Of a stretch of 36,832 nt of DNA, positions 20,488 to 34,576 are shown one piece after another. The notes under the pieces are model-generated. The model made no database searches. It had not been told where the DNA came from and was given only the letters and a program-made list of their open reading frames with translations. The stretch lies in the IMG/VR virus record IMGVR_UViG_3300017967_000079, positions 1 to 36,832 of that record; one strand, given 5' to 3'. The stretch's first letter is position 1, and every line of letters begins with the position of its first letter. The stretch is from a virus. Both the position numbers and the translations under genes were made by a program.

Positions 20488-23400
20488 ATGTCTCGAAAAA
20501 TTCACGAATTGCGCGGCATTCTTACCCTAAATTCAAAAGGGTTTGTCAACGGCGTTCGCAAAGCGATTGGAGCAACGAAGGAATTCCGGCAAGCTTGGGG
20601 CAAGGCCGGGAAAGACGTTGCGACGGTTGGCAAGCGAATGATCGGCGCAACGGCGGCGTTTGCTGGTTTTGCTGTAAAAGAGTTCGCCGAATTTGAATCG
20701 GTTATGGTTCGCGTTCGGGGCGTTACAAATACGCTTGGCAAAGAAGGCGCGGCGCAGTTTAAGATCTTGGAAGATCGCGCGCGGCAAATGGGCGCAACAA
20801 CTCGATTCACCGCAACGCAAGCGGCGGAAGCGATGGAGAACTTAGGGCTTGCCGGGTTGAACGTCAAAGAAATTTATGACGCGTTACCGGGCGCGTTGCA
20901 ATTGGCTTCGGCTGCGCAAGTTGATATTGCGACGGCTGCCGATGTTGCGGCGAAAACAATGCGTTCGTTCGGTATGGAAGCTTCGCAGCTTTCGGAAATC
21001 AATGATACGTTGGTTGCAACGTTCACTCGCTCGAACACGGATCTTCGGCAATTGGCGGAAGCAATCAAACCGGTTGGGCCGGTTGCGGCTTCTCTCGGCA
21101 TAAAGCTTTCAACCGTTACGGCGGCGCTCGGCAAGCTTTCCGATGCCGGTTTTCAGGGAAGCGAAGCGGGAACGGCGTTGCGGAATATCCTCTCGCGTTT
21201 CGCCGGGGCCGTTCCGGAAGTTTCGGCAAAGCTTCGGAAACTTGGTATCGATATCGCATACACTCGCGATGGATCGATGGATTTCATTCAGACGATGCGC
21301 AACATGCAAGCGGCTGGATTGGAAACCGGCGAAGTTATGGCGTTGTTCGGAATGCGCGGCGGGCCGGGAATGGCGGCATTGCTTCAAGTTGGAATCGATT
21401 CAATCGCGGAATTTGAGGAGGGAACCAAAAAGCTTCGTGGCGTTGCGAAGCGATTGGAACAAGCGCAGTTGAACACGTTTGCCGGGCAATTCGATCTACT
21501 TAAATCGGCGATTTCCGAAGTTGTTATTTCAATCGGTCAAAGGCTTGCGCCGGTATTCCGTCAAATGGTCAACGCGTTCACGGCGTTCACTCAAGAGCAA
21601 GGCCCGGCGATTGCCGATACTTTCGTAAATGCGGCGAAGGCGCTTGGAGAATTCGGCGTTTCGATTATCCAATGGTTTCGAGACAATCGCGAAACGGTTC
21701 AAAAATTCATTTCAACTTTATTCGGAATCGTGAAATGGATTGGCGAATTTATGGCGAATCATCCGCGATTGATGGCGGCGCTGGTTGCCTTCAAAATTAC
21801 CGGTTTGCTCGGCATCAACAAAGCGGCGGGTTCGGTTATTTCGGCTTTGGGAACAACCGTCAAAGTTATTGCTGCCGATTTGATCCCGGCGCTTGCGACG
21901 GCAAAAGGCCGGGCGGTTGCGGCGAAAATCGCAATGATGGGATTGAAGGCGGGTTTGGCTGGTTTGGCGATTGTTGCAATTGGCGTTGCGGCAAAATTCA
22001 TTTACGAATTGAATCCTGCGGTTCGGGAGTTCAGGAAAGAAGCCGAACGCGCGAAAAAACTAAATTCGGAATGGGCGGATCGATACGTTAAGAAAACGCA
22101 AGAAATGATCGATAAGGCGAACGAATTTAAGAACGCCGGGCAACGATCAAATTTCTTGAAGGCGCAGTTGAAAGATGCGCAAGTCGCGCTTGAGTCATAC
22201 AAAAACGCCGTCAAGAGTTCGCAAAAGCGGGCCGAAGAATTGCGCCCAACATGGCGAAGCTTAGGGCAAGCCGGAAAAAAACTTTGGGAAGAACAGGTCG
22301 CGCAAACGCAAGATTTTGAAAACAAAGTTCAACTTACGAAAGATCGCGTGAACGAACTTGAACGGGCATTGTCGCAAGCGAACGCGGCGAATCTTTCCGG
22401 GCTGGAAGCGAAGTTTGAAAAGCTTAATCAAATGGGGCAAGCCGACGGGCTTGAGGGCGGCGGCGGAATGCCCGGCGGCGGCGGCTTTGGAGAAAAAGCC
22501 GAAAATAATCAAAAGCTTGCGGAAGCAATTGCATCGGCAATCGAAGCAAAGCGGAACGCGCGGTTGGATTCCGAAATTGCGGGAACGTCCGAACTTTCCG
22601 GGTTCATTCAACAGTTGATTCAAGCGCAAGCAAGCGGGGCAATCACTCCGGATCAAGCCGTTGCAAACTTGGGGCAATATGCTTCAAACATTCCCGGCGC
22701 AACACCGCAAAACGCTGCAAGGCTTGCGGCTGGTTTGACTATGGCGGGCGAAGCCGGGGAGCTTACGCCGGAACGAATCAACGAATTGGTTCAAACATTT
22801 CTTCGCGGAATTCAGGAAACTGAATCAAAGATGCAAACCGCGAAAGAAGCAACGCGAAGTTTGGGCGAACGCTTCCAAAATCTTCGCGAGCAATTCCCGA
22901 ACATCGAATTGAACGATCTGGCAACGAAGTTTGTAAACATTCGCAAGGCATTTATGGAAGGCAAGGTTTCTTCCGAACAATTCGGCAAGGCGATGGATTC
23001 GTTGAAAAAACAAACGGATGAAGCCGTTAATGCGGCGAAGCGAAAAGAAATGCAAGAGCGGCGCGAAATGATGATTCGCGTTCTTTCGGGCCGGGCAACG
23101 CAAGCGGATCGCGAAGCCGTTGCGAGAATGCGAAACGCGCGTTCGATGGAAATCTTTGATAAGCAACTTGAAAACGCTTTCAACAATTTTATCGGTTTGA
23201 ATCGCCAAGTTGGGAACGTCAACAACAACTTCCAAAACCTTTCGAGTCAGATGCAAAACTTCGGGCGCGGTTTTCAAGGCGGCTTCGGGCCGGGGCCGGG
23301 CGGCGGCGGGTTCGGCGGGTTCGGCGGATTCGACGGATTCGGCGGGCAAGGATACGGGTCCGGGTTCGGCGGCGGCGCTGGCGGCCCGAGACAAGATCGA

Positions 23401-23772
23401 ATCATTGAGGCTATGAATACAACCGCCGGGCAGATCGCGGCGGCATATGCGGAAATTCAAACGCTTCAATCGGCGTTGATGTTCTTAGGGCTAGGGCCGA
23501 ACTCGCAAAAATCCGACGATATCAAACAACAGATTGAAGCGCTCTTGCGTTACATTCAAGATCTTCAAAATCAACCGCAACAATTCATCGGGCGTTCGGG
23601 TGATATTCCGTTTGAAGATCCCGGACTTGCCGAAGATGGAAGATCCGGGAACAATGGCGTTCAAAGCTTGACAATCGAAGCGCCGAATCTTACCCGCATG
23701 GGACAACAAGAAGTTTCCGATTTGGCGGCGGCAATCAAAGAGCATGAACGGCGGGAAGGTTTATCATTATGA
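20488..23772 (+). CDS. Tail tape measure protein
   Basis: A 1,094-residue protein, the longest in the window. Residues about 65-260 form a TP901-type tape measure domain: FAEFESVMVRVRGVTNTLG, DRARQMGATTRFTATQAAEA, MENLGLAG, AAKTMRSFGMEASQLSEIND and LGKLSDAGFQGSEAGTALRN. A hydrophobic stretch near 484-508 (LAGLAIVAIGVAAKFIYEL) is the usual membrane-active segment. Coiled-coil regions and a Gly/Phe-rich stretch near 930-970 follow. It sets tail length and is ejected with the DNA. From the known proportionality, about 1,100 residues would give a tail of very roughly 160 nm. No peptidase or lysozyme motif seen. Confidence 0.9.
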   Translation: MSRKIHELRGILTLNSKGFVNGVRKAIGATKEFRQAWGKAGKDVATVGKRMIGATAAFAGFAVKEFAEFESVMVRVRGVTNTLGKEGAAQFKILEDRARQMGATTRFTATQAAEAMENLGLAGLNVKEIYDALPGALQLASAAQVDIATAADVAAKTMRSFGMEASQLSEINDTLVATFTRSNTDLRQLAEAIKPVGPVAASLGIKLSTVTAALGKLSDAGFQGSEAGTALRNILSRFAGAVPEVSAKLRKLGIDIAYTRDGSMDFIQTMRNMQAAGLETGEVMALFGMRGGPGMAALLQVGIDSIAEFEEGTKKLRGVAKRLEQAQLNTFAGQFDLLKSAISEVVISIGQRLAPVFRQMVNAFTAFTQEQGPAIADTFVNAAKALGEFGVSIIQWFRDNRETVQKFISTLFGIVKWIGEFMANHPRLMAALVAFKITGLLGINKAAGSVISALGTTVKVIAADLIPALATAKGRAVAAKIAMMGLKAGLAGLAIVAIGVAAKFIYELNPAVREFRKEAERAKKLNSEWADRYVKKTQEMIDKANEFKNAGQRSNFLKAQLKDAQVALESYKNAVKSSQKRAEELRPTWRSLGQAGKKLWEEQVAQTQDFENKVQLTKDRVNELERALSQANAANLSGLEAKFEKLNQMGQADGLEGGGGMPGGGGFGEKAENNQKLAEAIASAIEAKRNARLDSEIAGTSELSGFIQQLIQAQASGAITPDQAVANLGQYASNIPGATPQNAARLAAGLTMAGEAGELTPERINELVQTFLRGIQETESKMQTAKEATRSLGERFQNLREQFPNIELNDLATKFVNIRKAFMEGKVSSEQFGKAMDSLKKQTDEAVNAAKRKEMQERREMMIRVLSGRATQADREAVARMRNARSMEIFDKQLENAFNNFIGLNRQVGNVNNNFQNLSSQMQNFGRGFQGGFGPGPGGGGFGGFGGFDGFGGQGYGSGFGGGAGGPRQDRIIEAMNTTAGQIAAAYAEIQTLQSALMFLGLGPNSQKSDDIKQQIEALLRYIQDLQNQPQQFIGRSGDIPFEDPGLAEDGRSGNNGVQSLTIEAPNLTRMGQQEVSDLAAAIKEHERREGLSL

Positions 23773-26501
23773 CGCGCAGCATTTCGGCGGCATCGCAAAC
23801 GGAACTTGCAAAATCAACCGGCGCGTTTCTTCGGTATGTTCTCGAAATTCAATGGGGCGGCGCAACGGGAACAAAGTATTATTCGGATGAAGAAATTTCG
23901 CCAACATCGGGCGGCTTCACAACGGATGATCGGGTTAATCGTTGGGGCAATCTTCGCGTTCAAGGGAAACCGGCGCAAGTCGGTTCAAGCAATTCTTTCA
24001 ATCTGGTTTTGCGTGATAATGATTTTGCGTTGCGCGATTTGTTCTTTGCGAAGCCGGGCGTTCAAGGAAAGATTGCGAAAGTTTATGTTTGGTTTGAAGG
24101 AACAAATTGGAGCGATGCCGTTACGGTTTTCGCTGGCATTCTCACCGCGCCTTTCAAGTTCTCCGAACGTTCCGTTGATTGGCAAGTTACGCTTACCGGA
24201 ATCGAAAAACATTTTGATCGCTCGATTGGCTTGCCGTTGACGCGGCAAGTTTTTCCGGAAGTTGTTTGCGATGATTGCGAAGGAAAAATTATTCCTATCG
24301 TTTACGGCAATCCCGTTAATCGCGTTCCGGCATGTTTGATTGATAGGCCGGGGAAGGGTTACTTGTCGCAAGTTTTCCGGCATACTTCAACCGCGCTTTA
24401 CCTGAATGACACGGCTGCGAATCTTGGCTTCACTTCCGGAACGTCAATCGATTTGATGATTGGTTATCCGAACGATTATGAAATCGTTACGGGAAGCTTT
24501 GCAGCTTCCGACACAAATCAATTCGATTGGACAAGCCGAAGCAAAATTTTACAGGCCGGAACGTCCGACGGCGATGTGAACGTTGACGGCTTTACGCATT
24601 CCGCCGTTCCTTCCAGCGATTTCACGAACGCGCATATTTCGCGTGCCGGGCATTTAATTTCGTGGTATTTAGACAACGACAACGGCGGGCAAGAATGGTT
24701 TACGTTTTTGATCACGAAATGGAAAGCGCCGTTTAACATCAACATCGCTGTTCATCCGGAACCGGATATTCCAAGCGGCGGAACCGGAACCGGGGATGCC
24801 TATCGAATTTGGGCGGATCCCGGCGTTGTTCCATATTGGCCAGCCGGAACTCCGGTTTATGAAGTTGGAGATTGGACTTACGTTATCAACTATTTGCCTT
24901 CCGAAGAAATTCAAAAAGTTGAGGCGCGCGGAAGCGAACAAAGCCAAAACGAAACCGAACAAGTTTACCATGAATACAATACGGATTTTTGGACGGCAAC
25001 GCTTGACGACGATACATACAATGCCGATTTGGGCCGGGCTGGTTCGGATCCCGGAATCACAACGATTGCAGTCAATCAACCGCCGACGAAACTTGGCTTC
25101 GCCGAAGAAACGATTTGGGTTACATTAGTCGGAATCACTGACGACGAAACCGCAACCGGAACGCCGTTAGAAAAAGGCCCGGAAATCATCGAACATATTT
25201 TGACTTCGGAATTTCTCGGCAACATAGATACAAGCTTTATCGATACGGCGGCATTCAGCGCGGCGAATACGGCGGTTGCCGAGAAGTTTCAAATGGCAAT
25301 CGTTGACGAAAAGAACATTCATCAACTTGCCGGGGATCTCGCGTTTCAATGTTTCTGTTTATATTTTTGGGATGCGGGCAAAGCTTCAATCAAAAAAATC
25401 GTTGTTGATCTTTCCGGCGAAACATCGGATGCAACTTATACGCAAGCCGACAAAACGCACGCAAGCGAAGCGCCGTTGATGATTTCGCAACCGTCGATTG
25501 AAAGCCTCTTTACCGAATTGCTGGCAACGATGCGAACGGCTTTAAGTTCTCCGGAATCAAAACTTTTCCGGCGTTCTCCGGATGCAATCGCGGCGTTCGG
25601 GAAGCGGCGAAAAAATATCAATCTTTGGGCGTATCAAAACACCGAATACGTTTCAAACATCGCGGAAGATTGGCTTTCGTATTATCTTGGTTTTCAACAA
25701 ACGGTTGAATTTACCGCGCGGGTTAATGCGCTGGATCGGCAACCGGGCGATATCGTTACGGCAAACTTTTCAAGCGGCGATTCGGTTTCGATTATAAATC
25801 AAAAAACTCGCGTTGTTGGCGTTTCGCATACGTTCGGAAAGGCTGGCGAACAAACGGATCGAATCAAACTAGAATGCGAATATCCGTTGTGGACGTATGC
25901 CATTGAAGCCGCAACATACACGAACGAAGATTGCAACGTTGCGATTCCGGTTGAAACTTCGGATCCATCAACTTCGGTTACAACCGTTTCGACAACTTCA
26001 ACAACGACAACTTCAACAACAACCGAATCAACAACGACGGAAGGCGGAACGACCACAACAACTACTTCAACAACGACGGAAGAGCCGGGAACAACAACGA
26101 CAACGACCGAAACGACAACAACTTCAACGACAACCGGGGAAGGCGAAACGACAACCACAACAACCACAACGACCACAACGACCACAACGACCACAACGAC
26201 CACAACGACAACCACAACGACAACCACAACAACTTCATCGACAACCAACGGCGGCGGAACTCCCGGCCCGACAACAACGCCGGACGGCGGTACAACGACA
26301 ACTTCAACGACAACCGGGGAAGGCGGAACAACAACAACAACAACAACAACAACAACGACAACAACGACAACAACAACGACAACAACGACAACTTCAACAA
26401 CAAGCGGCGGCGGAAGTTCAAGTTCATCATCAACAACGTTTGGATACGGATCAACACCGGGATCAAGTTCAAGTTCATCAACTACGGAGTTTGTATATTA
26501 A
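23769..26501 (+). CDS. Tail hub / tip protein with mucin-like Thr/Ser C-terminus
   Basis: A 910-residue protein overlapping the tape measure gene by 4 bases (ATGA), the position of tail hub or baseplate proteins. The first 735 residues look like a folded tail protein: GAFLRYVLEIQWGGATGTKY, a DDRVNRWGNLRV segment, FNLVLRDNDFALRDLFF, YVWFEGTNWSDAVTVFAG, and a later PGDIVTANFSSGDSVSI near the end of the fold. From about residue 737 it changes to low-complexity threonine: short S(T)n(E/G) blocks, two nearly pure Thr runs of roughly 30 and 23 residues split by a Gly/Pro linker, then Gly/Ser runs ending TTEFVY. This resembles a mucin-type stalk, a natural O-glycosylation substrate. The gene is followed 15 bases later by a glycosyltransferase fusion. 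Confidence 0.75.
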   Translation: MTRSISAASQTELAKSTGAFLRYVLEIQWGGATGTKYYSDEEISPTSGGFTTDDRVNRWGNLRVQGKPAQVGSSNSFNLVLRDNDFALRDLFFAKPGVQGKIAKVYVWFEGTNWSDAVTVFAGILTAPFKFSERSVDWQVTLTGIEKHFDRSIGLPLTRQVFPEVVCDDCEGKIIPIVYGNPVNRVPACLIDRPGKGYLSQVFRHTSTALYLNDTAANLGFTSGTSIDLMIGYPNDYEIVTGSFAASDTNQFDWTSRSKILQAGTSDGDVNVDGFTHSAVPSSDFTNAHISRAGHLISWYLDNDNGGQEWFTFLITKWKAPFNINIAVHPEPDIPSGGTGTGDAYRIWADPGVVPYWPAGTPVYEVGDWTYVINYLPSEEIQKVEARGSEQSQNETEQVYHEYNTDFWTATLDDDTYNADLGRAGSDPGITTIAVNQPPTKLGFAEETIWVTLVGITDDETATGTPLEKGPEIIEHILTSEFLGNIDTSFIDTAAFSAANTAVAEKFQMAIVDEKNIHQLAGDLAFQCFCLYFWDAGKASIKKIVVDLSGETSDATYTQADKTHASEAPLMISQPSIESLFTELLATMRTALSSPESKLFRRSPDAIAAFGKRRKNINLWAYQNTEYVSNIAEDWLSYYLGFQQTVEFTARVNALDRQPGDIVTANFSSGDSVSIINQKTRVVGVSHTFGKAGEQTDRIKLECEYPLWTYAIEAATYTNEDCNVAIPVETSDPSTSVTTVSTTSTTTTSTTTESTTTEGGTTTTTTSTTTEEPGTTTTTTETTTTSTTTGEGETTTTTTTTTTTTTTTTTTTTTTTTTTTTTSSTTNGGGTPGPTTTPDGGTTTTSTTTGEGGTTTTTTTTTTTTTTTTTTTTTTSTTSGGGSSSSSSTTFGYGSTPGSSSSSSTTEFVY
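25978..26410 (+). repeat. Low-complexity ACA/ACG/ACC codon repeats coding poly-Thr
   Basis: Degenerate trinucleotide and 9-base tandem repeats (unit ACAACGACC, clearest at about 26160-26215; ACA-rich units at about 26328-26395) encode the Thr runs of the tail hub. All units are multiples of three, so slippage would change length without breaking the frame. The opposite strand is open as poly-Val, an artefact. Confidence 0.9.
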
Positions 26502-26516
26502 AAAAGGCGCAAAAAA

Positions 26517-28019
26517 ATGGATTTCTTTTTGAGAGTCACCGGGGAACCGGGCGACAAAGATTATTGCGTTGCCAGTCTTCAAAAGCTTCAAGCCGAAACG
26601 GGCGTTGAAGTAATTGAAGATTATGACGCGGCGCTTTCAGCAATTCTTGACGAAGCGGGCGAACCGCGATTGATCATCGCGAACGGCGAACGGGTTGGTT
26701 TCGTCGCAACGAACCGGCGCGAATTTGATGCCGGAAAAAATCGCGGGTTATTTTCTTTGATCTGGATTGAACCGGAACATCGGCGGAACGGTTACGGATT
26801 TACGGCGGTTTTGCATTGCCTGAAAGGTTTGGGTTTCCGCGAATGGCTGGCAAAAACTCCGCGAACCGAAGCCGCGAAAAAGCTTTTTGAAAAACATGGC
26901 TTTCAAGAGTTCGATGAAAATTATTTGATTCGGCGGATTGACGACGGATCCGAAATGCCTTGCATTCATCGCGGCGAAGATATCGCAAACATTTATTGCA
27001 AACCATGCAAATCGAAAACGGGCCGGGGCCGAATGGTTACGGTTTTTGATTGCGAACTTCACAACGCTTGCACGTTGAACAACGAATTCGTTCGTTACAA
27101 CAAAAAACGTTGCGTTGCATGTTCAACTTGCGATGATCGAAAAGCGGTTGATGATCGATTTCGTTTGGATATCGGCATGGCTTGTTTCGATGATTACGCG
27201 GGCGTTTGGTTCACGATTCAGGCGATGCGGCTTGAAATACTTGCGAACAACATACCCGCAAAAGTTCGTTTCATAATTATCGACAACAATCCGGGCGGGG
27301 CGCATGGGAAGCTTTTGGAAGATTTCGCGAGACAAGCCGAAGAAATTGATTACGTTCCTTACGCTGAAAGGCAAGGAACAAGCGGCCCGCGCAACGAAGT
27401 TTTCGTTCGATCCGATGCCGAAGCCGTTGTTTGCGTTGATTCGCATATTTTGCTTTGGCCCGGATGGATTCAACGGTTGGTTGAATTTTATCAGGCGAAT
27501 CCTGAAACGAACGATTTGTTTCAGGGTTTGTTGTTGTGGGATAATTTAATTCCGGAACGCGGCGCTTCGCATATGGATCCCGAAAATTGGTGCGCAAATA
27601 TGTGGGGCAAATGGGCCGGGGATGAACGCGCAAACAAGCTTGACGGCGAACCGTTTGAAATCCCGATGCAAGGGCTTTGGCTTTTCACTTGTCGGCGCGA
27701 AGCTTGGCTTGGCTTCAACGAACATCAACGCGGGTTCGGAAGTGAAGAAGGTTACATTCATGAAAAGTTTCGGCAAGCCGGAAGAAAAACTTTATGCTTG
27801 CCGTTCATTCGCGGCGTTCATAAATTTGGGAAGCCGAACGGCGTTGTTTACCCGAACAACTTGCCCGACATTTGCCGGAATTATGTTATCAGTCATTACG
27901 AACTTGGCTTGCCGATGGAACCGATTCGCAAACATTTCGTTGACGAATTAAATCTTGCGGCGGATATGTTTGAACTCTTTATTGCCGAAGCGCGAAGGAT
28001 CTACGATGACAAAAGTTAG
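26517..28019 (+). CDS. GNAT acetyltransferase / Cys-cluster / glycosyltransferase fusion
   Basis: A 500-residue, three-part protein preceded by AAAAAGGCGCAAAAAA. Residues 1-140 resemble a GNAT N-acetyltransferase: SLIWIEPEHRRNGYGFTAVL carries the acetyl-CoA loop RRNGYG (about 89-94), followed by AAKKLFEKHGFQEF. Residues about 148-205 hold eight or more Cys in a CIHRG, CKPC, CELHNACT, CVACSTC pattern, a probable metal site. From about 210 on is a GT-A glycosyltransferase: a nucleotide-binding N-terminal strand, VVCVDSHILLWPGW (DSH, residues 308-310) and GFGSEEGYIHEKFRQAGRK. DXH rather than DXD is typical of polypeptide GalNAc transferases and the GT60-type family. The neighbouring mucin-like tail protein is the obvious candidate acceptor. 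Confidence 0.75.
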   Translation: MDFFLRVTGEPGDKDYCVASLQKLQAETGVEVIEDYDAALSAILDEAGEPRLIIANGERVGFVATNRREFDAGKNRGLFSLIWIEPEHRRNGYGFTAVLHCLKGLGFREWLAKTPRTEAAKKLFEKHGFQEFDENYLIRRIDDGSEMPCIHRGEDIANIYCKPCKSKTGRGRMVTVFDCELHNACTLNNEFVRYNKKRCVACSTCDDRKAVDDRFRLDIGMACFDDYAGVWFTIQAMRLEILANNIPAKVRFIIIDNNPGGAHGKLLEDFARQAEEIDYVPYAERQGTSGPRNEVFVRSDAEAVVCVDSHILLWPGWIQRLVEFYQANPETNDLFQGLLLWDNLIPERGASHMDPENWCANMWGKWAGDERANKLDGEPFEIPMQGLWLFTCRREAWLGFNEHQRGFGSEEGYIHEKFRQAGRKTLCLPFIRGVHKFGKPNGVVYPNNLPDICRNYVISHYELGLPMEPIRKHFVDELNLAADMFELFIAEARRIYDDKS

Positions 28020-28788
28020 TTGTTTATGCCCGACGTTCAGACGACCGAAAGCCGTTGCGAATGCGGTTGCCTGTTTTTTGATGCAAGATTTTGAAGATTC
28101 GGAATTGATCGTTTTGGATGATGAAGGCGATTACATTCCGGGAACGATTGCCGAACGCGTCAAAGTTGTTTCGATTCCGTTTCGCTTCCGAACGCTTCCG
28201 GAAAAGTTCAACGCTTGCGCCGGGCTGGCATCAATCGATTCGGAATACTTAATTGTTTGGGAAGATGACGACGTTTATTTTCCGAACCATATTTCAAACC
28301 ATGTTGTCGTTCTTTCCGAAACGGCTGACATTTGCGTTACCTCAAAACTTTACGATGAAAAAGGCGACGGCGGAAACATCCGGGTTCGCGACAACTCAAT
28401 TTCATTTCATTCGGGATGGGCATACCGGCGCGATTTCTTTGATTTGATTGACGGTTACAAAATCACTCCGAATTTGAATTTCGATCAACGAACGTTTCAA
28501 AAGTTTATCGACAACGGGGCCGAACTCGATTCAACGCCGGAAGCTTCGCATGTTTACACTTGGCTTTCATCCGGTTACACAAACGGATCCGCATTGCATG
28601 GCGATAAGGTTGAATCGGGCGATTGGTATGCGGCGGCGGCGGATTTGCCTTATCGGGACAAACCGCCGGAACCGATCAAGCTTGAACCGCGATTGTCGGA
28701 ACAATCTGAAAAGGCATATGCCGAACTTTACCCGGAAGCATTGGAAAAATTTTTGAATAAACTTAAAAAAAGTGAATTCAGTTATTGA
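28006..28788 (+). CDS. Family 2-like glycosyltransferase
   Basis: A 260-residue protein. The ATG at 28006 overlaps the previous gene by 14 bases; the in-frame start at 27955 is less likely. MTKVSCLCPTFRRPKAVANA is a classical GT2 N-terminus, LIVLDDEGD follows, and IVWEDDDVYFPNHI (D87-D89) is the metal-binding DXD. FHSGWAYRRDFFDLIDGYKI resembles the acceptor side of GT-A enzymes. It probably adds a sugar in the same pathway as the preceding fusion, since the two genes are co-transcribed. Its stop codon lies in the -35 of promoter P2. Confidence 0.82.
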   Translation: MTKVSCLCPTFRRPKAVANAVACFLMQDFEDSELIVLDDEGDYIPGTIAERVKVVSIPFRFRTLPEKFNACAGLASIDSEYLIVWEDDDVYFPNHISNHVVVLSETADICVTSKLYDEKGDGGNIRVRDNSISFHSGWAYRRDFFDLIDGYKITPNLNFDQRTFQKFIDNGAELDSTPEASHVYTWLSSGYTNGSALHGDKVESGDWYAAAADLPYRDKPPEPIKLEPRLSEQSEKAYAELYPEALEKFLNKLKKSEFSY

Positions 28789-32608: not shown

Positions 32609-32968
32609 ATGTCAGTTGAAAAAATCGAATTGCCGTTGACCGAATACGGCAACCATGTTTTGACCGAAAGCATGGTTCGCGAACTCGAAAGAAAACCTTG
32701 CGCATGCGGAAAAAGAAAAACGGCGGAACCGCAAATTCCCGTTGAACCGATCAAAGTTGAAACGGATAAATGCGGGGCGCGGGTTACTGGCGAAATGCCG
32801 GTTGTTTGCTCTTTGCATTTGCGATGCGGCGTTTGCGACAAGATTCATTTCGCGATTCAATTCAAAACGATTCCGACATTTCAGGCGAACGGAAATTTCC
32901 GAATGCTCAAATGCGAACCGAAACCGGATAACAATTGCGGGCCGATTGAAGAAAAGGTTTTGGAATGA
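32609..32968 (+). CDS. Cys-rich hypothetical protein
   Basis: A 119-residue protein preceded by CAAAGGCGCGGA. CACGKRK near residue 31 and CGVCDKIHF near 73, plus other Cys, suggest metal binding. It overlaps the next methyltransferase gene by 4 bases (ATGA). Function unknown. It may be expressed from a promoter regulated at the tandem sites upstream, which I cannot place with confidence. Confidence 0.62.
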   Translation: MSVEKIELPLTEYGNHVLTESMVRELERKPCACGKRKTAEPQIPVEPIKVETDKCGARVTGEMPVVCSLHLRCGVCDKIHFAIQFKTIPTFQANGNFRMLKCEPKPDNNCGPIEEKVLE

Positions 32969-33513
32969 ATCATTTGCCGGGGTTGCGGAAAAAGTTCAAA
33001 ACGATTTATGCCGATCCGCCGTGGCAGTTTCAAAACCGAACCGGAAAAGTTGCGCCGGAACATTCGCGTTTGCATCGTTATCCAACAATGACGTTTAACG
33101 AAATTTGCGAAATGCCGGTTGCGAATCACGCGGAAGAAAACGCGCATTTGTATCTTTGGATTCCGAACGCGTTGTTGCCGGAAGGCTTGACGGTTTTGGA
33201 TGAATGGGGATTTCGTTACGTTTCAAATTTGGTTTGGTTGAAAACCCGAAAAGACGGGCAACCGGACGGGCGCGGCGTTGGTTTTTATTTCAGGAACACA
33301 ACCGAAATTTTGTTGTTCGGCGTTCGCGGAAGTTTGCGAACATTGCAACCGGCGCGTTCTCAAGTGAACGCGATACTTTCCCGGAAGCGCGAGCATTCAC
33401 GAAAGCCGGATGAATTTTATGATTTGATTGAAGCATGTTCGCCGGGGCCGTTTCTTGAATTGTTCGCGAGACACAAGCGGCAAGGCTGGCGGCAATGGGG
33501 GAACGAAATTTGA
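32965..33513 (+). CDS. MT-A70 family adenine-N6 methyltransferase
   Basis: A 182-residue protein. FKTIYADPPWQFQNRTGK contains the DPPW catalytic motif (residues 17-20), and NAHLYLWIPNALLPEGLTVL, SNLVWLKTRK, NTTEILLFGVRG and RKPDEFYDLIEACSPGPFLE follow the family order. In phages, MT-A70 proteins methylate adenine in DNA, usually to block restriction. It starts in an ATGA overlap with the previous gene and is followed by a short HTH-like gene and a second adenine methyltransferase. Confidence 0.88.
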   Translation: MNHLPGLRKKFKTIYADPPWQFQNRTGKVAPEHSRLHRYPTMTFNEICEMPVANHAEENAHLYLWIPNALLPEGLTVLDEWGFRYVSNLVWLKTRKDGQPDGRGVGFYFRNTTEILLFGVRGSLRTLQPARSQVNAILSRKREHSRKPDEFYDLIEACSPGPFLELFARHKRQGWRQWGNEI

Positions 33514-33733: not shown

Positions 33734-34576
33734 ATGGCAAACCCTTTGAAATGGCATGGCGGAAAAACGTATCTGGCAAAAGAAATTATAAAACGCTTTC
33801 CGAGTCATACTCGTTACGTTGAACCGTACTTTGGCGGCGGGGCCGTTCTCTTTGCGAAACCGCATCAAGGCGTTTCAGAATTCGCGAACGATCTCAATCT
33901 TGAGTTAATGAATTTTTGGCGCGTTCTGCAAAATGAATTTTTGGGGCCGTTGTTGATTCGGCGGTTGAATCTTGAACCGTTTTCAAAGCCGGGGTTCACA
34001 GTTGCAAAAGTCAAAACCGAACATGCGGATCCGAATGCTTCGCCGGTTTTGCGGGCGGCGAATTTCTTTGTTCGATACCGGCAAAGCCGTCAAGGTTTGG
34101 GGAAGGATTTTGCAACGCCAACATCGCGAACGCGGCGGAACATGAACGAACAGGTTTCAGCATGGCTTTCGGCGGTTGAAGGATTACCGGAAGCGGCGGA
34201 AAGATTGCGGCAAGTTGAAGTTCGCAACGAACCGGCAACCGATTTAATTGTTGAACTCGATTCGCCGGAAACCCTTTTTTATCTGGATCCGCCGTATCTT
34301 CCACAAACCCGGAACGCGAAAAAGGCATACGGCGATTTTGAAGCAACGGTTGAACATCATGAATTGCTTTTGAAAACGCTTGCGGATATCAAAGGCAAGT
34401 TCATCTTGTCCGGATACGATTCATCGCTTTACGGGAAAGCGGCCCGCGCAAACAAATGGAAAGTTGACACAATCGAAATAGACAACAAAGCAAGTTCGGC
34501 GAAGGAAAAAGAAATCAAACAAGAAAAGTTTTGGTTCAACTTTTCCCGTCGCGAGTTCGGAAAAGGTTTGAAATGA
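33734..34576 (+). CDS. D12-class (Dam-like) adenine-N6 methyltransferase
   Basis: A 280-residue protein preceded by GAAAGGCTGACAA. PLKWHGGKTYLAKEI (SAM side), RYVEPYFGGGAVLF and LFYLDPPYLPQT (DPPY, residues 185-188) define the D12 class, whose best-known member methylates GATC. Target specificity cannot be read here. It overlaps the next gene by 4 bases. With the MT-A70 gene it would give two adenine methylations, a common anti-restriction strategy. Confidence 0.9.
   Translation: MANPLKWHGGKTYLAKEIIKRFPSHTRYVEPYFGGGAVLFAKPHQGVSEFANDLNLELMNFWRVLQNEFLGPLLIRRLNLEPFSKPGFTVAKVKTEHADPNASPVLRAANFFVRYRQSRQGLGKDFATPTSRTRRNMNEQVSAWLSAVEGLPEAAERLRQVEVRNEPATDLIVELDSPETLFYLDPPYLPQTRNAKKAYGDFEATVEHHELLLKTLADIKGKFILSGYDSSLYGKAARANKWKVDTIEIDNKASSAKEKEIKQEKFWFNFSRREFGKGLK

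Follow-up and report, generated by a model that had tools for sequence, protein, structure and literature searches.

Does a phage that encodes a glycosyltransferase directly behind a Thr-rich tail gene glycosylate its own tail? The question is raised by the 36,832-base virus record IMGVR_UViG_3300017967_000079 (the window, our term for the whole stretch of DNA analyzed), from a phage known from metagenomes. In the window, a putative tail hub protein ending in a Thr/Ser-rich tail is followed by GT1, a protein with a predicted polypeptide GalNAc-transferase (ppGalNAcT)-like domain, and by GT2b, a second glycosyltransferase (Table 1). The first-pass annotation had suggested self-glycosylation by the phage, to bind host surface lectins or to shield the tail tip. 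The suggestion is partly supported: the analysis bore out a ppGalNAcT-like enzyme and a recurrent adjacency to Ser/Thr-rich genes, with activity, sugar, tail-tip location and purpose being putative. On balance, we favor the view that GT1 is dedicated to cytosolic O-glycosylation of the Thr tail of the hub, and that the three genes form an acceptor-enzyme cassette.

GT1 would be a cytosolic, metal-dependent GT-A enzyme that takes its sugar directly from a nucleotide donor and O-glycosylates Thr and Ser residues of the hub tail before or during tail assembly. GT2b would then extend or diversify the glycan by adding a second sugar, giving the virion a mucin-like bristle that is stiff and hydrated. 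Since phage structural proteins are synthesized in the cytosol, which contains the nucleotide sugars, a soluble ppGalNAcT-like enzyme would need no lipid carrier. To our knowledge, long Thr tracts recurrent in phage proteins have no accepted role; their pairing with an enzyme suggests one that can be tested, that of glycan scaffolds.

Of the 174 tail residues, 107 are Thr and 24 are Ser; Gly (20) and Glu (9) come next, and Pro occurs just 5 times. Its length and its two pure Thr runs agree with the initial description, but the spacers, then taken to be Gly/Pro, are rather Gly/Glu/Ser. The Thr codons are mixed (ACA 56, ACG 26, ACC 15, ACT 10), so that Thr is maintained across synonymous codons. 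Over 437 bases, record L010 shows no difference from the window. In record L011, identical to the window over the 721 hub residues compared, the first Thr run has 26 instead of 29 residues, and the hub of a sister contig (L009) also ends in a Thr/Ser/Gly tail. Thus, the tail persists while its length drifts. As first noted, a glycosyltransferase gene carrying a DSH motif begins 15 bases past the hub stop codon, and a second GT2-like gene comes after it; GT2b reached 35.5 bits against PF00535 (cut-off 23.3).

Table 1. Features of the locus in the window.
Feature	Position	Strand	Basis or remark
Tape measure protein	20488..23772	+	PF10145 E 6.2e-42; phrog_1533 E 3.9e-78; adjoins hub 5', places hub by gene order
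Putative tail hub or tail-tip protein with Thr-rich tail, 910 aa	23769..26501	+	Function by position only; relatives L010-L013
Thr/Ser-rich C-terminal tail, residues 737-910, proposed acceptor	25977..26498	+	Composition
Thr run of 29, residues 794-822	26148..26234	+	Sequence
Thr run of 22, residues 854-875	26328..26393	+	Sequence
GT1, 500 aa: GNAT, Cys ribbon and ppGalNAcT-like glycosyltransferase	26517..28019	+	Pfam, model, fold search
GNAT acetyltransferase domain of GT1, residues 41-131	26637..26909	+	PF00583 E 4.6e-8
Cys/His ribbon of GT1, residues 149-205, CxHRGE...CxxC...C..H..CT...C..C	26961..27131	+	Also in other phage proteins
GT-A catalytic domain of GT1, residues 216-478	27162..27950	+	Profile match; model and fold search
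DSH metal motif, residues 308-310	27438..27446	+	D and H in 152/152
His 435, likely C-terminal metal-ligand histidine	27819..27821	+	152/152; pairs with GALNT7 His, weak match E 0.23
GT2b, 260 aa: second glycosyltransferase (GT-A, DDD), possible extender	28006..28788	+	PF00535 E 1.2e-8; model pLDDT 89.9; best folds WrtF, TarP among others

Predicted fold and active site of GT1

GT1 matches PF00535 (Glycos_transf_2) with 30.7 bits (cut-off 23.3). The AF2 model of its catalytic domain was based on a 104-sequence alignment (A3), all members of which match PF00535 at E 0.1 or better, and had a mean pLDDT of 95.8. When this model was compared with the PDB by Foldseek, the best 50 rows were polypeptide GalNAc-transferases throughout (best E 1.4e-12). 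In VIA-align, the 29 listed ppGalNAcT entries had Z scores of 20.2-24.2, followed by GlfT2 (18.6) and chondroitin polymerase (18.5); the alignments with ppGalNAcT covered 254-276 of 295 residues at 11-16% identity. The model thus argues for the ppGalNAcT-like enzyme that had been guessed from the DSH motif. The fold match named in advance as speaking against this guess, to an enzyme specific for lipid-linked or nucleotide acceptors, had the opposite outcome, the nearest folds being polypeptide transferases. In the same search, the model of GT2b (20 sequences) served as a control: its best 50 Foldseek rows contained no ppGalNAcT, but WrtF, TarP, RmlT and similar enzymes. At the level of sequence, the A3 profile found TarP and chondroitin synthase first, over about its first half, and other GT2-type enzymes outranked GALNT10, which was matched at E 2.2e-4 over profile positions 33-225 of 257.

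Relatives of GT1 were found by its motif GFGxEExYIHEK, a looser version being used for viral contigs, where at least 119 stretches matched. In bacterial genomes the motif occurs at 71 loci with 72 open reading frames (ORFs), 68 of which align across most of the domain. Duplicates, copies of the sister contig and ORFs shorter than 100 aa were removed, which left 182 rows, 110 viral (among the matches listed) and 72 bacterial. Full coverage of the domain was found in 151 of these, with 35-51% identity to the GT1 domain of the window; the sister stands apart at 79.5%. Scans with a single sequence or with two sequences matched the sister contig alone.

In the 151 full-coverage rows and the window, D308, H310, E410, E411 and H435 are each present in all 152 aligned sequences. 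According to PMC7185993, a DxH that replaces DxD characterizes GT27 and GT60, a late 'C-His' binds metal in GT27, and the Asp of xED acts as catalytic base in inverting enzymes and varies among retaining ones. The metal-binding residues of mouse GALNT1 are given as Asp209, His211 and His344 in PMC4202792. A weak HMMER alignment (E 0.23) places the GGE and the late His of the GT1 family over those of GALNT7. As to GT60, GT1 does carry DxH, but no GT60-labelled structure was present among the fold matches listed.

Neighbors of GT1 relatives in phages and bacteria

The adjacency of enzyme and Ser/Thr-rich gene turned out to be a recurrent pattern. Genes were defined by a simple longest-ORF rule. 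A gene was called Ser/Thr-rich at 60% or more in a stretch of 40 aa (or 30 residues), a threshold of our choosing, and 50% was also counted. Loci without an upstream ORF were dropped, leaving 101 of 110 viral and 60 of 72 bacterial loci; the window itself stood outside the counted loci, and the sister contig was scored as a miss, its cut tail having been called in the wrong frame. The five other positions within three genes of the GT1 relative served as control positions. Among loci in which the directly upstream gene could be identified, it is Ser/Thr-rich in 27 of 98 viral loci, compared to 10 of 388 control-position genes (Fisher p 4.6e-13), and in 9 of 59 bacterial loci, compared to 2 of 240 (Fisher p 1.1e-5), the loci being non-independent in both cases. 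When positions were shuffled within loci, the observed count was reached in 0 of 20,000 shuffles, for viral and bacterial loci alike.

Since relatedness inflates such an association, the enzymes were clustered and the clustered counts are set beside the p-values (110 viral and 70 bacterial ORFs, two bacterial ones of uncertain gene order being dropped). At 80% identity, the viral counts were 14.0/61 upstream and 1.0/59 downstream. The bacterial counts were 5.0/49 upstream and 1.0/45 downstream at 80%, and 3.8/16 and 0/14 at 60%. The Ser/Thr-rich carriers, 56 proteins with the window included, fell into 42 groups by BLAST with low-complexity masking. Note that 42 is an upper figure, since some proteins were short or empty after masking; the fully masked L009 protein formed its own group although it is a relative of that of the window. 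Judging from these sequences, the recurring element looks to be the Ser/Thr tract rather than the backbone that carries it.

In the reverse direction, starting from at least 120 Thr-run stretches in viral contigs, PF00535 was the commonest family among the downstream genes (5 of 56) and was found in 0 of 51 upstream genes (51 of 58 scanned; seven long genes were left out, other long ones stayed). Counting PF00535 in whole records of Thr-run phages was tried as well: 18 of 80 listed records exceeded the cut-off, L009 and L010 aside. This count is silent on adjacency and was replaced by the neighbor tests.

A homolog of GT2b lies 3' of GT1 in 10 of 101 viral loci (sister included) and in 3 of 60 bacterial loci. 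The upstream gene is Ser/Thr-rich in 6 of the 10 viral and 2 of the 3 bacterial loci with such a homolog, and in 32 of 91 and 15 of 57, respectively, of those without. One Thr-run phage contig (L115 4858-6516) has two adjoining GT2b homologs. Among the 101 proteins upstream of viral GT1 relatives, 22 have the C-terminal tag C-x(3-9)-C-xx-L-x-[FYWL] (e.g. L246, L256, L287, L298, L313, L347), which may serve in recognition or attachment; 19 of the 22 are Ser/Thr-rich.

In bacteria, a small Ser/Thr-rich protein with a Tat-like start (called by our own regular expression) lies within 2.5 kb upstream of 19 of the 72 GT1-type genes (L175, L229, L211, L227, L235, L200, L232 and others), compared to 0 of 110 viral ones. 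These proteins show the Tat-like start and a PAHA-like end, followed by a Ser/Thr-rich stretch, e.g. repeated AAPTTT, and some loci contain two of them (L211, L227, L229). The bacterial enzymes have the same glycosyltransferase domain as GT1, but an HprK-related kinase A-like domain is present in 5 of 7 proteins scanned (under the NCBIfam cut-off), and the acceptor looks exported rather than part of a virion. GT25, GT9-like, FucT-N-like or sulfotransferase-like parts were present in some of eight bacterial proteins scanned against Pfam. The bacterial loci look like a surface 'mini-mucin' system, a context that would tie the GT1-type enzyme to exported peptides, not to lipid carriers.

It is conceivable, with the odds close to even but slightly against, that phages and bacteria share a dedicated, cytosolic mucin-type O-glycosylation in which a ppGalNAcT-like enzyme is encoded beside its own Ser/Thr-tract acceptor, a tail or other structural protein in phages and a small Tat-exported 'mini-mucin' in bacteria. 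The same tentative reading includes the occasional addition of a second glycosyltransferase and, in bacteria, of the HprK-like domain. If it is true, the 'bristles' formed by Thr tracts in many unrelated phage proteins would be glycoproteins.

Competing explanations and known systems

A number of observations weigh against the acceptor-enzyme cassette. As to the enzyme, Glu follows GGE in 152 of 152 sequences, where GALNT7 has Asn (GGE-E versus GGE-N); GGEN, with Asn after Glu, is the motif expected of GT27. At column 433, Trp is found in 148 of 152 rows and Gly in the window. A ricin-type lectin domain was not found in GT1 (Pfam, E 1), which ends 22 residues past the glycosyltransferase domain. 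As to the acceptor, the tail is poor in Pro. The viral association includes few independent groups when enzymes are clustered at 60% (4.0/19 upstream, 0/19 downstream), and the reverse test is not independent of it, at least three of the five downstream PF00535 genes (L087, L102, L128) being GT1 relatives from the motif scan. Moreover, 51 of the 56 genes downstream of Thr-run genes lack PF00535, many phage Thr runs thus having no such neighbor, and one upstream control gene matched another glycosyltransferase family.

The viral relatives themselves are also heterogeneous. Of 101, 28 (L241, L245, L301 and 25 more) lie 3' of a protein with an APG-type C-terminus, and the sole such protein scanned (L301) is a PD-(D/E)XK nuclease. 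A 12-codon Ser/Thr run is present in 3 of the 28 APG-class records, mostly fragments and picked by eye, and in one of the three the run is no more frequent than in the reversed control. Another 32 of the 101 have other neighbors; 6 of 30 such records, again picked by eye, hold a 12-codon run somewhere, some at a frequency equal to the reversed control. Thus, a link to Thr tracts is not universal in the GT1 family.

The foremost competing explanation, which we hold to be unlikely, is that GT1 glycosylates another site or another virion protein, the Thr tail being an unmodified flexible spacer. The many phage proteins that bear Thr runs without an adjoining glycosyltransferase are consistent with a spacer, and phage-encoded glycosylation of capsid and tail tube, described in papers citing Freeman 2023, shows other virion proteins as targets. 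Yet the GT1 family follows Ser/Thr-rich genes whose backbones mostly lack detectable homology (42 groups among 56), so that the tract seems to be what they share.

We give still less credence to the idea that GT1 and GT2b are cargo behind the tail genes and alter host surface glycans, as in superinfection exclusion or serotype change. Both proteins match PF00535, and the fold neighbors of GT2b include TarP, TarS, RmlT and WrtF, which act on surface polymers. The nearest folds of GT1, however, are polypeptide transferases, and its bacterial relatives stand behind small Tat-like Ser/Thr-rich proteins in 19 of 72 cases. Glycosylation of phage DNA by GT1 is very improbable: DNA-modifying glycosyltransferases of viruses are reported (according to the title of a paper cited in PMC12619734), 28 of 101 viral relatives lie behind the APG-type class with its one nuclease, and the window carries MT-A70 and D12-class methyltransferase genes, but no base-hypermodification enzyme was found among the window genes scanned (part of the gene set), and GT1 lies directly behind tail genes.

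The acceptor-enzyme cassette can be compared with two known systems. With the ppGalNAcTs of CAZy family GT27, GT1 shares the nearest solved fold, DxH, a later conserved His, GGE and a Thr/Ser-rich presumed acceptor. It differs from them in its 11-16% identity, in GGE-E, in that no ricin-type lectin domain was found, in the fusion to GNAT and Cys ribbon and in being phage-encoded. Because of GGE-E instead of GGE-N and the missing lectin domain, we do not file GT1 under GT27; the model suggests a GT27-like protein that would work like a GT27 enzyme.

In mycobacteriophages, glycosyltransferases modify structural proteins, with glycans at the C-termini of capsid and tail tube proteins (Freeman 2023, as summarized in citing papers). 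Phage glycosyltransferases acting on structural proteins, predicted for the window, are common to both systems. As far as those summaries go, the targets there are capsid and tail tube; here, the target would be the Thr tract of a putative hub, next to a ppGalNAcT-like enzyme, a distinction made from the descriptions. From these accounts, it is already known that phages encode enzymes that glycosylate the C-termini of capsid and tail tube proteins. As far as we searched, what is new is the type of enzyme, the proposed acceptor with its Thr tract, the recurrence among carriers that are largely unrelated, and a counterpart in bacteria. In the open-access literature, covered through listings and the beginnings of abstracts and with subscription papers outside its scope, we found no description of a coupling between such an enzyme and a Thr tract. 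Phage virion glycosylation would be widened from isolated cases to a recurrent cassette. The family would also provide glycoengineering with compact, soluble enzymes of the ppGalNAcT-like kind, and would point to a matching bacterial surface-protein system.

Hub identity, accessory parts of GT1 and the wider locus

The hub sequence matched neither a Pfam family (E 1) nor a PDB chain (E 10), and its PHROG matches were no better than E 0.028. Identification of the hub from its sequence was therefore abandoned, and 'tail hub' is retained as a positional label, given by the place after the tape measure gene. Both ends of the sister contig lie inside the Thr tract, as if the assembly broke there, and the three contigs with an identical hub end in or just short of the tail (L009 1-300, L013 10300-10541 and the ends of L010-L012). 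Such tails may thus be under-sampled in metagenome assemblies.

Two parts of GT1, the GNAT domain and the Cys ribbon, were absent from the first-pass annotation and make it a three-part protein. We can only guess at their roles: the GNAT part may N-acetylate an amino sugar, and the ribbon may dock GT1 onto the tail protein. The Cys/His ribbon (CxHRGE) recurs in phage proteins (L136-L168), and at E 0.01 it matched 16 phage loci besides those of the window and the sister. By eye, the genes upstream of these ribbons look structural, and the ribbon is fused to varied enzyme parts, some of them glycosyltransferase-like. Its recurrence behind structural-looking genes is what suggests that it could dock onto the tail. 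The ribbon was also considered as the cause of the Thr tail and rejected: at the other ribbon loci identified by eye, Ser and Thr make up 12-25% of the last 100 residues of the best upstream ORF. No 12-codon Ser/Thr run was present in the 32 records matching the ribbon pattern, chance pattern matches included.

The same order of hub, GT1 and GT2b was found in one other contig, the sister L009 (IMG/VR, 59,321 bases). Its hub is 83% identical to that of the window over 735 residues and its GT2b 82%; its GT1 is 67% identical, and 79% across ribbon and enzyme. Among named phages, tblastn yielded no match for GT1 (E 1e-5), the hub (E 1e-5) or GT2b (E 1e-2), and matches to the Cys ribbon were at chance level. 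The start of GT2b is most likely ATG 28006, not TTG 27955, which gives a 14-base overlap with the end of GT1.

Elsewhere, the window encodes MT-A70 and D12-class adenine methyltransferases and a Methyltransf_24 protein (32965-33513, 33734-34576 and 1182-1823). In the sister contig, an ORF at L009 9020-9778 has, by eye, a sulfotransferase-like beginning and may be an additional glycan-tailoring gene of the sister phage.

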